Assembly (NCBI GenBank): GCA_913009635.1
Contig: CAJVXI010000008.1
Coordinates: 1-38,298, forward strand
Reading direction: 5' to 3'
Source: an uncultured bacterium
Lineage (GTDB): Bacteria > Patescibacteriota > Minisyncoccia > UBA6257 > UBA9933
DNA: 38,298 nt
Positions 4,278-27,987 of this stretch are shown one piece after another. The position numbers and the translations under genes are program-made. The notes under the pieces are model-generated. The model was given only the letters and a program-made list of their open reading frames with translations. It had not been told where the DNA came from and made no database searches. Numbering within the stretch: position 1 is the first letter of the stretch; each line of letters begins with the position of its first letter.

Positions 4278-7200
4278 ATGTTGCCAACAAAAACTTTTTC
4301 TTCTCACCCAAAATCATTTATTGAGCAGCCTCACTTAGCTGAAACTCAAATTACTTCATGGAACTGGCTTATTAAAAAAGGACTCAAAGAGCTTCTTAAA
4401 GAAATTTCTCCCATTAAAGACCATTCTGGGAAAGAACTGGAACTTTATTTTACTGATTACTATCTTGATGAACCGAAGCACGACGAAGAAACTGCCAGAT
4501 TTAAAGATTTAACTTTTGAAGCCCCTTTAAGAGCTAAAATTAAATTAGTAAATAATAGAACTAAAAAAGTCAATGAACAAGAGGTTTACTTAGGAGACTT
4601 CCCTATAATGACAGAACGAGGCACATTTATTATTAATGGCGTTGAAAGAGTAATAGTTTCTCAGCTTATTCGTTCTTCCGGGGTTTATTTTACAGCGGAA
4701 GTTTCTCATGGTAAAAAACTTTTTGGAGCTAAAATAATTCCTAATCGTGGAGCTTGGCTAGAATTTGAAACTGATTCCGACGGATTTATTGGTGTAAAAA
4801 TTGATCGGCATCGTAAAGCTCCGATAACCGATCTTTTAAGAATTTTTTCGAATTCGAAAGGCCAACAAACAATGGGAGATACCAAAGAAATATTAAAAAT
4901 CTTCAAAGATGTTGATACGGGACCGATTAAATTTATTGAAGCCACTCTCAAAAAAGATCCGGCAAATGATATTTCTTCTTCTTATATTGAAATTTATAAA
5001 CGACTTCGACCAGGTGATTTAGCTACTCCAGAAAACGCTAAAAGTTTAATTGATGCGATGTTTCAACGCCGAGATCGTTATGATCTTTCGGAAGTTGGCC
5101 GCTTTAAGATTAATCAACGTTTAGATATTAAAAATAAAGACAAACGGCTGCTTGATCTTGAAGATCTAATTTTAATAATTAAAGAAATTATCAGGTTAAA
5201 TAATACTCCTTTGGCTGAACCTGACGATATTGACCATTTAGGTAATCGACGAATTAGGGCTGTAGGTGAATTACTTCAAAACAGACTTCATGTCGGTTTT
5301 GCCCGATTAAGAAGAATTATTCAAGACAGAATGTCTACTTTAGATATTGAAACATTAATTCCAACTCAATTAATTAATGCAAGGCCTTTAATAGGCGTAA
5401 TAAAAGAATTTTTTGCTTCTTCCCAACTTTCTCAATTTATGGACCAGATTAATCCGCTGGCAGAATTAGAACATAAACGCCGACTCTCTTCTATGGGTCC
5501 AGGCGGACTAACAAGAGAAAGAGCTAAATTTGAAGTACGCGACGTTCATAGCTCTCACTACGGAAGAATTTGTCCAATAGAAACACCAGAAGGCCCTAAT
5601 ATCGGACTAATTAACCATTTAGCAAACTTTGCACGACTTAATGAATTAGGATTCTTAGAAACTCCTTATGCAAAAGTAAAAAAAGGTAAAATTACTTCAG
5701 AAATTGTATGGCTTAATGCCTTAGACGAAGAAAAATATAAAATTGCTCAAGGCAGCACTAAAATTGATAAACAAGGAAAAATTGAAGAAGAAACAGTTGA
5801 GGCAAGAATCGGCTCTGAGCCGGGAACTTGCTTAAAAAATGAAGTTGATTTAATAGATGTAGCGCCTCATCAACTAATTAGTGTAGCCACGTCTTTAATT
5901 CCTTTTCTTAAACATGATGATGCAAATCGCGCGTTAATGGGCTCTAATATGCAACGTCAAGCTGTGCCCCTAATTAAACCTCAAGCGCCATACGTAGGAA
6001 CTGGCGCTGAAGAACGAGCAGCTCTAGATTCAGGAAGATTAGTAATTGCTGAAAACGATGGAGAGGTTGTGGAGGTAGATGCCAGTCATATTAGCGTTAA
6101 ATCAAACAAAGAAATTAAGCACTACCCAATCTATAAATTCAGAAGATCTAACTATTACACTTGTATTTCTCAAAAACCTCTTGTTAAAAAAGGGGATAAA
6201 GTTAAAAAAGGCAGTATTTTAGCTGATGGACCGTCTATTGATAAAGGGGTGTTGGCTTTAGGACAAAATCTTTTAGTAGCTTTCATTTCTTGGGAAGGAG
6301 CAAATTTTGAAGACGCGATTATTCTTTCTGAAAAAGTTGTTAAAAATGATGTCTTTACGTCTATTCATATTGAAGATTTTTATTGTGATGTCCGCGATAC
6401 TAAATTAGGTCCAGAAATTACTACTCCAGATATTCCAAACGTTTCCGAAGAAAAACTTAAAAATCTTGATGAAGACGGAGTTATTAGAATCGGCGCCAAT
6501 ATAAAAGCAGGCGATATTTTAGTTGGCAAAATCTCTCCTAAGGGTGAAGTTGAATTAACGTCAGAAGAAAAATTACTCCGCTCAATCTTTGGAGAAAAAG
6601 CCCGTGATATTAAAGATTCTTCTCTTACATTACCTCATGGTAAATCTGGATGGATTATAGGAATAAAAATCTTTTCTCGTGACCGTGGAGATAAACTTGA
6701 TCCAGGGGTAATTAAAAGAATTCAAATTGAAGTAGCAGAAATACGAAAAATTCGGGCTGGCGATAAATTAGCCGGACGCCATGGCAATAAAGGAGTAATT
6801 TCTCAAATTCGACCAATTGAAGACATGCCACACCTTGAAGATGGCACTCCGATTGATGTTCTTCTTAATCCATTAGGAGTTGCTTCCAGAATGAACTTAG
6901 GACAAATTCTAGAAACACATTTAGGATTAGCTAGTCAAAAATTAAACTATCGGGCTGTTTCCCCCGCTCTTAGTGGAGCTAACGAAGATGATATTAAAAC
7001 CGAGCTTAAAAAAGCCGGCTTTCCAGAAAGCGGTAAATTAACTCTTTACGACGGACGAACCGGCAAACCGTTTCCTAATCCAATTACTGTCGGTTATATG
7101 TATATACTAAAACTAAACCACTTAGTAGAAGATAAAATTCATATGCGCTCTATTGGACCTTACTCATTAATCACTCAACAGCCATTGGGAGGCAAAGCGC

Positions 7201-13564: not shown

Positions 13565-13577
13565 TATATATAAATTC

Positions 13578-13604
13578 AACGGCTCGCACGCCATGTGAGC
13601 CGTT
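13578..13604. repeat. GGCTCAC/GTGAGCC palindrome, copy 1
   Basis: AACGGCTCGCA pairs with TGTGAGCCGTT around CGCCA. This is the most diverged of four copies in the window (others at 23362-23399, 26611-26648 and 27952-27987). It lies between the promoter of the 60-aa gene and the DUF2283 gene. The rest of the gap 13605-13705 holds nothing I can identify. Confidence 0.75.
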
Positions 13605-13705
13605 TATTATGTAGATATTTAATTTAATCGTAATCAGGCTACAATTGGTTTTCCCTACATTACTATTCCATAGCTTTATACGAAAGAGAGACGGCAAATT
13701 CTTTT

Positions 13706-23045: not shown

Positions 23046-23193
23046 GGCTCTACCTACCTGTCTGACGGAACCGGCTGTCCGCCGACTCCAGCGGTCGACG
23101 GCAGCCTTGACTCTCGCTCCGACGGCTCTCGCTTTACTCAAGACCAAGCCCGTCGAAGCTCCGAGACATTCCGCACGATAGGCAGGTAGAGCC
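23046..23193. repeat. GC-rich long palindrome before tRNA-Ile
   Basis: GGCTCTACCTACCTGTC at the left end pairs with GATAGGCAGGTAGAGCC at the right end (about 15 of 17). The interior is much richer in G+C than the surroundings and holds further inverted words, such as CTGTCCGCCGA/TCGACGGCAG. No coding frame in it looks real. It could be a mobile palindrome or a terminator for the pilus genes. Confidence 0.65.
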
Positions 23194-23215: not shown

Positions 23216-23287
23216 GGGTGTGTAGCTCAGTGGCAGAGCACAGTCCTGATAAGACTGGGGTCGGAGGTTCGATCCCTCCCACACCCA
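23216..23287 (+). tRNA. tRNA-Ile (anticodon GAT)
   Basis: The acceptor is GGGTGTG/CACACCC with discriminator A, the D arm GCTC/GAGC, the anticodon stem CAGTC/GACTG with loop CTGATAA (anticodon GAT), and the T arm GGAGG-TTCGATC-CCTCC. It is 72 nt with no encoded CCA. It sits right at the left edge of the repeat-bounded cassette. Confidence 0.93.
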
Positions 23288-23400
23288 CTCATAAAGGCGA
23301 AGTAAGACACGGTAAGATAGAGGTTGTAAGTTCGATTCCTACCGCACGCACACTGTAAAGTAAATAAACGGCTCACATGCCGTGTGAGCCGTTTATTTTA
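23286..23400 (+). repeat. Left 115-bp direct repeat with a tRNA 3' end
   Basis: It starts with the last bases of tRNA-Ile (CACTC), then AAGGCGAAGT, then a tRNA T arm and acceptor 3' strand (TTCGATTCCTACCGCACGCA), then copy 2 of the AACGGCTCAC/GTGAGCCGTT palindrome (23362-23399). The copy at 26535-26649 differs at about ten positions. No matching 5' acceptor strand exists upstream, so it is a tRNA fragment, not a gene. Confidence 0.85.
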
Positions 23401-23620
23401 CTGGTGGAATTATATAATCTTGCTCGAACTTATTTTATCAAAAATGCGAACTGATGTCTTACGCACCACGCACGTGGTGGTTCGAAACGAAATCGTACGC
23501 TCTCGCCCCGTCGCCCGCCTCCCTGCCTGCGCCGAGACTTCGGTAGGTAGGCACTAACGCTACGGAGGTAACCTCGCAGGCAAAAAGTTTCCTCCCCTCA
23601 AACTCCCATCCACTTTTTGC

Positions 23621-23659
23621 CCGCTCGCCAAGAGGAAAAATCAAATAGATTGACGGGAT
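23621..23659 (+). repeat. Left 39-bp inverted repeat
   Basis: It begins CCGCTCGCCAAGAGG and ends AGATTGACGGGAT, and is an exact reverse complement of 26381-26419. It contains TTGACG (23650-23655), pointing inward toward the S51-like gene, but no good -10 box follows at 16-18 bases. Confidence 0.9.
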
Positions 23660-23699
23660 AATTTACAGTAACTTTCAATAATAATATTGTAACGTTATA

Positions 23700-24416
23700 A
23701 TGAAATCTAATAAAAATAATAAATCAAATATAGAATGCAAAATTATCCCTATCGGCGGAGGTTTGTTACGTTTGGGCGAAACGATTTCTATAGATAAATT
23801 CGTCATTCAAGAAAGCGGTAAAAAACATCCTAAGATTTTATTTGTACCAACCGCAAGCAAAGATTTACCAGCGTATTCTACCGCTTTTCGGCGCGTGTAC
23901 GAAAAATTAGGGGGCCAAGTAAAAATCTTGCGTTTGCTTGGTAAAAGAAAACTATCCCAAATATCATTAGAAAAACTCACCACAAGCGCCGATATTATTT
24001 ATGTTGGCGGAGGTGATTACGATGTTTTACTTTCAATATGGAAGAAACACAAAATTATTCCTCTTATACAGTCAGCATATCAACAAGGAACTATTCTTAC
24101 TGGCTTAAGTGCGGGGTGTGCCGTCTGGTACGAGTATCTTATAGACAGTGATAAGAATAAAAAACCCCGTCTCAAAAAAGGACTTGGCATACTTAGGGGC
24201 GCTGTAATTCCTCACTATAAATCTGATAATCCATTTCCATCTGAAATTCGCAAGGCAAAGCATCTTGTTACTGCCGTTGAGGACAGGTGTGCCCTGATAT
24301 ACATCAATGAAAAACTAAAAGGTTCTATACCAGCCACTAAACAAAAATCCTTTACAATTCGCCCTCCTTATGCTAAAAAAAGGCAAATAACTTTGTATTT
24401 TTACAAACATCACTAA
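23700..24416 (+). CDS. S51-family (peptidase E/cyanophycinase-like) protein
   Basis: A 238-residue class-I-glutamine-amidotransferase-like hydrolase. ILFVPTAS (residues 46-53), IIYVGGGDYDVLLSIW (99-114), TGLSAGCAVWYE with nucleophile Ser137, and IPHYKSD with His172 match the S51 family, whose members cut Asp-X dipeptides or cyanophycin-type chains. The start is taken at ATG 23700, following a TATAATG string without SD. The C-terminus (FTIRPPYAKKRQITLYFY) is basic. It is the first gene inside the inverted repeats, 20 bases ahead of the S66 gene, which suggests a shared transcript and a shared task on peptide substrates. The substrate is unknown. Confidence 0.8.
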   Translation: MKSNKNNKSNIECKIIPIGGGLLRLGETISIDKFVIQESGKKHPKILFVPTASKDLPAYSTAFRRVYEKLGGQVKILRLLGKRKLSQISLEKLTTSADIIYVGGGDYDVLLSIWKKHKIIPLIQSAYQQGTILTGLSAGCAVWYEYLIDSDKNKKPRLKKGLGILRGAVIPHYKSDNPFPSEIRKAKHLVTAVEDRCALIYINEKLKGSIPATKQKSFTIRPPYAKKRQITLYFYKHH

Positions 24417-24436
24417 ATCAAAAAAGGAGGTGACCA

Positions 24437-25504
24437 GTGATCACGAAAATTTTGCGTCCCCTCCAACTTGGAGATGGGATAGCCTTGGTTAATCCGGCTG
24501 GCGTACTACCGGAGCGATTCAAAAACCAACACAGATACGTCAAAGCGCATCTTAAAGAACTTGGATTTCTGGTCAAAGACTTCGTAATTGAAAGTGGCTG
24601 GGAGGACGCACAAAGGCGTAGTGAAATGTTGATGGCTGCATTCACTGATCCGCAAGTAAGAGCGATTCTGCCTCTCTGTGGTGGCGCAAAAATCTACGAT
24701 GTTCTTCCGTTGATTAACTATGATGTATTAGCCAATCATCCAAAGATCATTTGTGGTTCAAGCGAACTCTCGATTCTTGTGATGACGATTGCCGAGAAAG
24801 CGGACATGATAACGTTCTTCGGTCCACATCTCAACTTTCTTAACCCGAAGGCATCGAAACTCGAGAATAGGTTTACGGTGAGGAGCTTTTGGAATATGCT
24901 CCAATGGGACTGGCATGGAAGAAATGGCTTGAGTAGGAACGAGGCCTATCACTTCTTTGCTGTTCCTCGAGAGCAAATATCTCCAGTGACAATTCGCAAC
25001 ATTTACCGTGACCCAACGCGCATCGTGAATGTCCGCTATAGAGATAACTTCTACTACACTACTAATCCGGAACAAAGCGTGATTGGGAAGCTTTTGATCG
25101 GATCTCTTGAGGCGTTGGTGAGGCTCTGTGAGGAAGGATTGGCGCCCGATATTACGGGGAAGATTGTCATGTTGGATTCGCTGGATATGTCTCTTGCAAC
25201 AGTTGCAAAACTATTTCAGCGCTTCAATGTTCACTGTAATCTTTCTCGTGCTGAAGCAATCGTCTTTTCCTCGTTGACCGAAAGAACAGATCGAGATTCG
25301 CTTTTGTATCCGGAACTACGAGATCAGGGTCAAGTCAAGAATTTCCTTCGAGAAATTTCGGAGTTACTCGGAGGGAAACCGCCCCTCTTCCATGGTTTTC
25401 CTGTCGGACACTGTGCATACAAACTCACTTTGCCGATTGGAATTACCGCCTCCATCATTGCCGAAACTGGTGATTTACTTCTTATGGAGTCTCCGTACCA
25501 ATAA
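24437..25504 (+). CDS. S66-family peptidase (LdcA/MccF-like)
   Basis: A 355-residue S66 serine peptidase. LQLGDGIALVNPAGVLPERF opens the family fold. LPLCGGAKIYDVLPLINYD matches the RGGYG/LLPLIDYD region. ICGSSELSIL carries the probable nucleophile Ser109, and GFPVGHCAYKLTLPIG carries the probable His325. The usual catalytic Glu of the LE-E segment appears replaced by Asp247 in VMLDSLD. Family members cut L,D-tetrapeptides of peptidoglycan or inactivate microcin C. GTG 24437 is the start because a strong SD (AAAGGAGGTGA) sits just before it. Its codons are visibly richer in G+C than rpoB or topA, suggesting transfer. Confidence 0.85.
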   Translation: MITKILRPLQLGDGIALVNPAGVLPERFKNQHRYVKAHLKELGFLVKDFVIESGWEDAQRRSEMLMAAFTDPQVRAILPLCGGAKIYDVLPLINYDVLANHPKIICGSSELSILVMTIAEKADMITFFGPHLNFLNPKASKLENRFTVRSFWNMLQWDWHGRNGLSRNEAYHFFAVPREQISPVTIRNIYRDPTRIVNVRYRDNFYYTTNPEQSVIGKLLIGSLEALVRLCEEGLAPDITGKIVMLDSLDMSLATVAKLFQRFNVHCNLSRAEAIVFSSLTERTDRDSLLYPELRDQGQVKNFLREISELLGGKPPLFHGFPVGHCAYKLTLPIGITASIIAETGDLLLMESPYQ

Positions 25505-25505
25505 T

Positions 25506-25540
25506 AAAGGGCGAATAGAACATGTTCTATTCGCCCTTTT
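25506..25540. terminator. Bidirectional terminator in the cassette
   Basis: AAAGGGCGAATAGAACA pairs with its exact complement and is followed by a T run. It ends the S66 gene and overlaps the last codons of the convergent GGDEF-like gene. Confidence 0.85.
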
Positions 25541-26312
25541 TCTCTGCAAGGAGTTCGTTGATAAATCGGGCATCATCGTCTGTTATGCCATATTCGGAAT
25601 TCAACGCCATGGCCCGAAGACGTTCTCGAAACTCAACATCGCGACTCGCCCGACCGGCAAGCGTTACAAGCGATCCTCTTGCTTCTTTCTTGTAATCCTG
25701 GAGTTTAGTGTACACCACGTTCCGGAAGAACGTAACAAGGTCAAGGTCAGAGGCGTTAAGAGAGTCAAACTTTGCTCGGTCAAGTTCGTAGGCGAGTTCA
25801 CGACGCATAGTAAGCATAAGTTCAAGATATGCCGATGAGGCCTCTTGAACTCGTTGCGCCCTTACCAACCCAACGAAACGTGATGCAGTGTTGCTAATTA
25901 TATCTCCCGAGAAGATTTTACAGCCGAACGACACGGTAACATCCTCATCCACGATGTGAGCATTCTCTTGGATAAAGTTATTTATTCCACTTCCCAACAG
26001 TGAGAAAAACTCGTTTACGACCGACTGATCAATCGCTGCTCCAGTAGCAGAGACTTCTTCTCCCGAAGGAATCATACAAAATGCCGGAATCGCTTTCGGG
26101 TGTTTCTTGATAAATCTGTACATGAACGTACCGATTAGACGATTGTAAATGTCTACAAGATTTTCTGCCAATGGACGTCCATACCGCGACACAAAGATCC
26201 CAAGATTATCGATATCTCCAGTAACACCGAATAGAAACAGCTCCCGATTTCGGTCGTAAGTTTCAACAACTTTCAAAACTTTTCTGCTCCAGATACGCTG
26301 GCACTTTTTCAT
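25527..26312 (-). CDS. GGDEF-like (palm-domain) protein, degenerate
   Basis: A 261-residue protein. LFGVTGDIDNLGIFVSRYGR (residues 28-46) with Asp33/Asp35 looks like the first metal-binding strand of a GGDEF/palm nucleotidyl cyclase. IPSGEEVSATG (81-91) sits where GGDEF/GGEEF is expected but reads SGEEV, and DVTVSFGCKI resembles the next strand. The C-terminal 110 residues are helical and charged with no recognised output domain. The first Gly and the Phe of the signature are lost, so activity as a diguanylate cyclase is doubtful; a related cyclase or a sensor is possible. An SD (GAAAGGAGA) precedes ATG 26312, and its -35 box lies in the inverted repeat. Confidence 0.6.
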   Translation of the reverse strand: MKKCQRIWSRKVLKVVETYDRNRELFLFGVTGDIDNLGIFVSRYGRPLAENLVDIYNRLIGTFMYRFIKKHPKAIPAFCMIPSGEEVSATGAAIDQSVVNEFFSLLGSGINNFIQENAHIVDEDVTVSFGCKIFSGDIISNTASRFVGLVRAQRVQEASSAYLELMLTMRRELAYELDRAKFDSLNASDLDLVTFFRNVVYTKLQDYKKEARGSLVTLAGRASRDVEFRERLRAMALNSEYGITDDDARFINELLAEKKGE

Positions 26313-26361
26313 AACTTGTCTCCTTTCTATGTTTTGTGAATGTACTTTATGAGCTGAAACT

Positions 26362-26390
26362 ACGATACATTATTTTTTTAATCCCGTCAA
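26362..26390 (-). promoter_or_regulatory. Promoter of the GGDEF-like gene, partly in the inverted repeat
   Basis: TTGACG (26390-26385) lies inside the right 39-bp inverted repeat, and TATCGT (26367-26362) follows after exactly 17 bases. The start codon is about 50 bases downstream. The repeat therefore provides a promoter element that reads inward. Confidence 0.55.
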
Positions 26391-26419
26391 TCTATTTGAT
26401 TTTTCCTCTTGGCGAGCGG
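26381..26419 (-). repeat. Right 39-bp inverted repeat
   Basis: Exact reverse complement of 23621-23659 over 39 bases, with mismatches immediately on both sides, which defines the ends sharply. Both copies are perfect while the outer repeats have diverged. Confidence 0.9.
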
Positions 26420-26429
26420 AGGGCGAGGC

Positions 26430-26469
26430 GACAAAATGTCAGCCCCGCCGAAGACGGGGCTACTTTGTC
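26430..26469. repeat. GC hairpin outside the right inverted repeat
   Basis: GACAAA pairs with TTTGTC, and AGCCCCG with CGGGGCT, in one hairpin. It has no clean T tail, so it looks more like a REP-type palindrome than a terminator. It lies between the inner and outer inverted repeats. Confidence 0.6.
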
Positions 26470-26534
26470 AAAACAAACATTGGCGATTTTTAAGAATTTT
26501 TGATAAAATGAGTTCGAGCGGAATTGTATAAAGA

Positions 26535-26649
26535 CACTCGTCAAGGCGAAGTCGAGCGCGGTAAGATAGAGGTTGTAGGTTCGATTCCTACCGCACGCAC
26601 ATTATAAAGTAAATAAACGGCTCACATGCCGTGTGAGCCGTTTATTTTA
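26535..26649 (+). repeat. Right 115-bp direct repeat with a tRNA 3' end
   Basis: The second copy of the 23286-23400 repeat, offset by 3,249 bases. Here the T arm is fully paired (GTAGG-TTCGATT-CCTAC), followed by CGCACGCA and palindrome copy 3 (26611-26648). No 5' half of a tRNA is present. Confidence 0.85.
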
Positions 26650-27946: not shown

Positions 27947-27951
27947 TTATA

Positions 27952-27987
27952 AAATAAACGGCTCACACGACGTGTGAGCCGTTTATT
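27952..27987. repeat. GGCTCAC/GTGAGCC palindrome, copy 4
   Basis: AATAAACGGCTCACAC pairs with GTGTGAGCCGTTTATT around a two-base centre. It sits just behind a working-looking terminator, so it is not needed as a terminator here. Confidence 0.85.

Follow-up and report, generated by a model that had tools for sequence, protein, structure and literature searches.

The SCC and SCCmec elements of staphylococci insert at rlmH by means of large serine recombinases (LSRs) and end in short terminal repeats. CIMEs and other non-autonomous integrative elements hold cargo between attachment sites and have no integrase, and integron cassettes are served by a tyrosine integrase, with attC folding and a platform attI. 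Islander islands, which lie at tRNA and tmRNA genes, have been ascribed mainly to tyrosine integrases (PMC4383910).

Here we analyze a 38,298-nucleotide stretch of DNA from an uncultured patescibacterium (the window), in which three genes next to a tRNA-Ile gene are enclosed by repeats. We consider it very likely that this locus is the cargo module of a family of patescibacterial integrative elements that an LSR inserts at tRNA 3' ends, and that it was kept after the recombinase was lost. The family shares with those islands site-specific insertion at a tRNA or tmRNA 3' end, preservation of the target gene and a direct repeat at the ends, but differs in having a serine recombinase and in placing recombinase and cargo in separate inverted-repeat modules (PMC4383910). 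It resembles SCC/SCCmec in its LSRs, its insertion at a gene 3' end, its LSR-less relatives and its tandem accretion, whereas it targets many tRNAs, has terminal inverted repeats (TIRs) that reach 300 bp and gives the recombinase module inverted repeats of its own. Like CIMEs, it includes integrase-less cargo between attachment sites; unlike them, it carries one and the same half-site at both ends, inverted relative to each other, with DNA from downstream of the tRNA added. Integron cassettes, too, are small variable cargo units that lack a recombinase of their own, have inverted-repeat sites and undergo accretion, but the architecture differs, and their tyrosine integrase, attC folding and platform attI were not noticed among the loci read here.

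Patescibacteria (CPR) are a very large bacterial group of tiny parasites with small genomes, and gene gain in them is poorly understood. The elements form a large, apparently undescribed family of small mobile elements in this group. In agreement with the earlier note, which knew of no such architecture in CPR genomes, we found no description of it in the open-access literature, subscription papers and preprints lying outside the scope of the search. What is new is the unusual two-module layout with inverted attachment sites in tRNA-targeted integrative elements. The family provides a concrete route for gene gain in Patescibacteria, and, with ends and a target that are defined and cargo that varies (restriction systems, enzymes and surface proteins), it makes that question testable.

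The probable integrated element beside tRNA-Ile

The earlier note described three nested layers of repeats around the three genes. The repeats themselves were all verified: a perfect 39-bp inverted repeat (23621-23659 and 26381-26419), an outer inverted repeat with 86% identity over 36 bp (23410-23445 and 26496-26531) and a 115-bp direct repeat with 91% identity (23286-23400 and 26535-26649), which contains a tRNA 3' half. The exact inverted match of 39 bp compares with longest matches of 15-22 bp in 30 first-order shuffles of the window. The number of layers had to be revised, to one terminal inverted repeat plus duplicated DNA from downstream of tRNA-Ile. Because the window TIR is alike only in its outer 36 bp and its inner 39 bp, the two inverted repeats, outer and inner, represent the ends of a single terminal inverted repeat that has decayed. 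The direct repeat is no independent layer either: the left copy opens with the final CAC of tRNA-Ile and the right copy with the final CAC of the right outer repeat, so the repeat is the DNA just 3' of tRNA-Ile(GAT), duplicated at both junctions. The features of the locus are listed below; arms were scored with R1, a sequence model built from nine arm copies.

23216-23288, + strand: intact tRNA-Ile(GAT), the target gene (ARAGORN; Rfam tRNA, 70.4 bits; conserved gene order dprA-gspM-tRNA-Ile in about 25 relatives)
23286-23288: presumed crossover core CAC (C72-A73-C74), the last three bases of tRNA-Ile
23286-23400, + strand: left copy of the 115-bp direct repeat, that is, the core CAC plus D1 (tRNA-Ile downstream sequence), with a tRNA 3' remnant at 23311-23352 and a hairpin at 23362-23398
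23289-26537, + strand: inferred integrated element, 3249 bp between two CAC cores (from its junctions and the same plan in L105, L107, L109, L324 and L117/L123)
23403-23447, - strand: left arm, the 45-bp outward-facing end motif and attachment-site half (R1, 48.4 bits, E 6e-13)
23621-23659, + strand: left inner conserved TIR segment, 39 bp, perfect
23700-24416, + strand: cargo gene 1, S51 (cyanophycinase/PepE-like) peptidase (Pfam PF03575, E 6.6e-34)
24437-25504, + strand: cargo gene 2, S66 peptidase, MccF/LdcA-like (PF02016, E 1.5e-19; PF17676, 3.2e-11)
25527-26312, - strand: cargo gene 3, 261-aa protein with no family assigned by profile and homologue searches
26381-26419, + strand: right inner conserved TIR segment, 39 bp, perfect complement of 23621-23659
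26494-26537, + strand: right arm, outward-facing, ending in the core CAC at 26535-26537 (R1, 51 bits, E 9e-14)
26535-26649, + strand: right copy of the 115-bp direct repeat, the core CAC plus D2, regarded as the native sequence downstream of tRNA-Ile

Read on the - strand, the left arm is ...GTTCGAGC...ATTCCACC, with the core GTG at 23404-23406. D2 is nearer than D1 to the sequence downstream of tRNA-Ile in the genome G025 (56/72 against 49/72), so the right copy is probably the native one. The tRNA 3' half within the two copies (23311-23352 and 26560-26601) looks like the corresponding half of tRNA-Ile-like genes, and none of the other intact tRNAs in the window's genome matches it. We rejected tRNA-Thr(GGT) as its source, since it does not match the tRNA-Thr genes of this genome and tRNA-Ile/Asn-like 3' halves fit better.

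The direct repeat also contains a 37-bp terminator-like hairpin with about 20 further copies across the genome, and its reading as an element-specific feature was dropped because it belongs to this genome-wide family. The palindrome is nearly constant (AAATAAACGGCTCAC...GTGAGCCGTTTATTT; about 20 copies in the window's genome) and is perhaps a terminator or REP-like family; it lies at 23362-23398, 26611-26647, 27950-27987 and 13571-13608 of the window and at about 15 sites elsewhere in the genome. Separately, an 80% inverted repeat with 25-bp arms, unrelated to the element, occupies 23046-23193 in the gap between gspM and tRNA-Ile.

Cargo and recombinase content of the window's genome

The cargo had been read as an S51-like peptidase, an S66 peptidase and a GGDEF-like gene, and the profile matches listed above bear out the first two. 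The S51 peptidase retains the GLSAG nucleophile motif and scores below the cut-off of the NCBIfam cyanophycinase model. The best solved relatives of the S66 peptidase are MccF-like (PDB 4e5s, MccF), and its relatives within the order are at most 35% identical. The GGDEF-like label was not confirmed, since the third ORF has no Pfam or NCBIfam match; a GGDEF assignment was also not rescued by single-sequence structure prediction, which was too poor (pLDDT 47), and no homologue was detected among the 199 other genomes of the order. Two of the genes are indeed richer in G+C, as had been noticed, the S66 gene at 0.46 and the third ORF at 0.45 against 0.36 for the window, with the S51 gene at 0.37. 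The three cargo genes are foreign. Elsewhere in the same genome, at G000:C24:4417-4806, there is another S66 peptidase gene, a distant one with 30% identity.

No match to PF00239 or PF07508, and thus no serine recombinase, was detected in the window's genome (G000, 98% complete), and no LSR module bounded by inverted repeats is part of the window element. We have therefore filed it as a recombinase-less derivative rather than a complete element. The other marks of the family are present: a pair of outward-facing arms with GTTCNNA and a C-N73-C core, and an end at a tRNA 3' end with the matching triplet, tRNA-Ile and both arms having CAC. The view that this is a cargo-carrying element without a recombinase thus stands, the window holding the cargo module alone and relatives supplying an LSR module that uses the same ends; in the window, tRNA-Ile downstream sequence and the hairpin occupy the place of the missing LSR module. 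In a genome of this completeness without a detected serine recombinase, the window copy is probably stranded now, unless an LSR enters.

Arms and modules in relatives

A DNA search of relatives first detected inverted pairs of the window's outer repeat in other genomes. The arm is the outer 45 bp, GTTCGA followed by 17 nt and C-N73-C-C, and all arms look like the 3' end of a tRNA (GTTCNNA, about 17 nt, N72-N73-C-C). Arm copies fall into two main classes, ...GTTGTATAAATACACC and ...GTCGTAAAGATACTCC. The R1 motif was found in 60 of 200 genomes of the order (E <= 0.01) and in 32 of 380 genomes drawn from the phylum as a whole (E <= 1e-6), and the window's genome has exactly two copies, those of the window. 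An exact 22-mer of the arm core occurs in at least 119 stretches of 84,980 GTDB species genomes (257 Gb), about 0.5 being expected by chance if equal base frequencies are assumed. Among the matches listed (80 titles), nearly all carry names of Patescibacteria and some only that of a 'bacterium'; one Spirochaete matches the arm in the 22-mer core only. A viral origin was discarded, with one match, limited to the arm core, in 2.9 million viral contigs. The arm model allows elements, cargo and empty sites to be located directly in assemblies.

A conserved motif of this kind could in principle be an outward promoter (TTGATA...TATAAT-like) and no recombination site, the inverted pair then being regulatory. 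CAC-class arms do contain a TTGTATAAAT-like sequence, and in a few cases (L042, L121, L207 and L292) the arm immediately precedes the 5' end of a tRNA. However, the -10-like box is not kept in CTC-class arms (GTCGTAAAGATACTC) or in other arm types, which nevertheless preserve GTTCNNA and the N73-CC core; we rejected the promoter reading and give it next to no chance.

The related assemblies, where a search for the repeats had been suggested, contain arm pairs at other sites with other cargo between them. There, inverted outward-facing arms enclose 1.3-6.3 kb of unrelated genes, including ApaLI-type and TdeIII-type restriction-modification systems, an OLD-type ATPase, a histone-deacetylase-like protein, GTP cyclohydrolase II and guanylate kinase, ribonucleotide reductase pieces, HAD/NUDIX genes and surface-type proteins. 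In several relatives the cargo is flanked by TIRs of up to 300 bp with 94-100% identity, as it would be in a TIR transposon or MITE-like element moved by a transposase. Yet no transposase gene was recognized in the modules read, and complete relatives carry an LSR. The flanking repeat runs for about 20-115 bp from the tRNA core and is no target duplication of constant length, the targets are tRNA and tmRNA 3' ends, and the ends join LSR modules at the same core, all of which makes transposition extremely unlikely. Contigs often end at the elements, which the long inverted repeats may explain in many cases.

In intact relatives the plan is tRNA-N73-CC, then an LSR module between inverted repeats (IR-LSR-IR), then arm-cargo-arm, then NCC and flank. 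The LSR gene starts about 220-380 bp outside one arm in nine loci (L040, L088, L108, L201, L210, L223, L281, L286 and L298), where the module is bounded by its own inverted repeat of 66-147 bp. The far end of that repeat runs directly into a tRNA 3' end, at CTCC or CACC, in these loci except L108, in which no tRNA was detected at the far end. The wider set comprises 28 LSR genes from 36 loci chosen by the searches that found them, and is no random sample. Within it, inverted repeats bound 27 of the 28 genes, 20 of the 28 modules abut a tRNA 3' end, and a TIR-bounded cargo module, with arms of several sequence types, stands beside the LSR in 13 of the 17 cases with enough flank. The LSRs have Resolvase, Recombinase and zinc-ribbon domains. 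One LSR element uses tmRNA as its target. At L243:4516-6804 an LSR module lies beside a tmRNA 3' end, with a piece of a ribonucleotide reductase gene in the cargo.

These modules bear on the view that the window holds the remnant of a tyrosine-integrase island at tRNA-Ile, its inverted repeats being incidental or arm-type sites. Such islands are classically recognized by their position at a tRNA 3' end together with a direct repeat of the 3' side (PMC4383910). We nonetheless hold this origin to be unlikely, since the window arms match arms that are joined to LSR modules, no tyrosine integrase was seen among the relatives' modules read, where a serine recombinase adjoins the site, and long TIRs around cargo are not part of the pattern.

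In three cases an LSR module is joined to the arm of another element in the position of the tRNA (L039:3764-5365, L325:4104-5706 and L335:13618-15370). To judge from these junctions, this looks like accretion, as if arms were taken for tRNA 3' ends. At L043:2009-2104 and, in L091, outside the arm at 5871, the stretch separating arm from tRNA holds short leftovers of LSR-module ends, suggestive of a deleted recombinase. Two further stretches, L330 (G015:C1) and L341 (G018:C44), are 99% identical in genomes assigned to different genera, so one bin is probably contaminated.

Mechanism, target choice and site occupancy

From the architecture, the target, the shared ends, the LSR linkage and the insertion or absence seen in the genomes, we infer a course of recombination, excision and mobilization in trans. 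The LSR would bind the arm and the tRNA 3' end as equivalent half-sites and recombine within C-N73-C, between an arm-core-IR site and a tRNA-core-downstream site. With the crossover placed there, exchange between a circle (arm-core-D) and tRNA-core-D would preserve the tRNA and place downstream DNA at either side, as in the 115-bp repeat, and excision would proceed through the two outer direct sites. The window module would have arrived with, or been mobilized by, an LSR encoded elsewhere and been retained after the recombinase was lost; recombinase-less modules in general may be mobilized in trans. Serine integrases in general need identical central bases, and by analogy the match at N73 between arm and target fits such an enzyme. 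The LSRs appear to target universal tRNA features (the T-loop and the discriminator-CC), which is of practical interest for genome engineering.

Target choice across the family was read from the arm copies. Of the 150 copies with enough flank, 20 have an intact tRNA no more than 60 bp outside the arm, where 0.9% would be expected; the other 130 include some far ends, some copies cut by contig ends and some that are unaccounted for. Where a tRNA 3' end faces the arm (14 copies), the core triplet equals that of the tRNA in nearly all, and L085 shows a clear mismatch. The equivalence of the two half-sites is approximate, given that GTTCGA and the core are separated by 17 nt in the arm and by about 14 nt in the tRNA. 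Direct repeats of the flank start at the tRNA core at both ends in L105, L107, L109, L324 and the contig pair L117/L123, and near-perfect palindromes lie between tRNA core and arm in several relatives. One simple crossover does not account for D on both sides of an LSR-less module together with these palindromes.

Two inverted arms per cargo module, and the complete arm-core-IR site that intact elements retain between the modules, could also belong to an invertible, phase-variable cassette in which a recombinase flips the cargo between the arms. This is very unlikely: the two outer junctions are unlike, one being formed with tRNA or IR and the other with flank, relatives show insertion or absence and not inversion, and serine integrases normally recombine no pairing other than attP x attB (PMC3783163). 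The retained site also enters a two-module version of LSR-mediated insertion, which we put forward tentatively and hold to be somewhat less probable than an even chance. The excised circle would carry two inverted arm-core-IR sites flanking the recombinase module; one would insert at a tRNA 3' end while the other stayed intact. Because arms mimic tRNA 3' ends, they might serve as landing sites (as in L039, L325 and L335), and cargo modules could be exchanged, accreted or left behind independently. If true, this would be a natural counterpart of recombinase-mediated cassette exchange.

The earlier note had set against its reading the case in which all relatives have the same three genes here. 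We found the reverse: about 25 relatives keep dprA-gspM-tRNA-Ile and none has the cargo, as read over about 1.5 kb beyond tRNA-Ile in most of them. The search for an empty site, also proposed there, succeeded in part. None was found for the window's exact locus among the genomes compared, one of them from its genus, and G017 was set aside as a source because its LSR loci lack the family plan. At another tRNA, a near-empty site was found: the sequence that comes after tRNA-Ala in G009 is the flank present in G015 on the far side of a 6.8-kb element, with the junction not resolved to the base because a small gene of 0.3 kb separates the two versions. At tRNA-Ile itself, tRNA-like 3' halves stand directly after the intact gene in L011, L023, L033, L048 and L049, and these are likely scars of past insertions at a hot spot.
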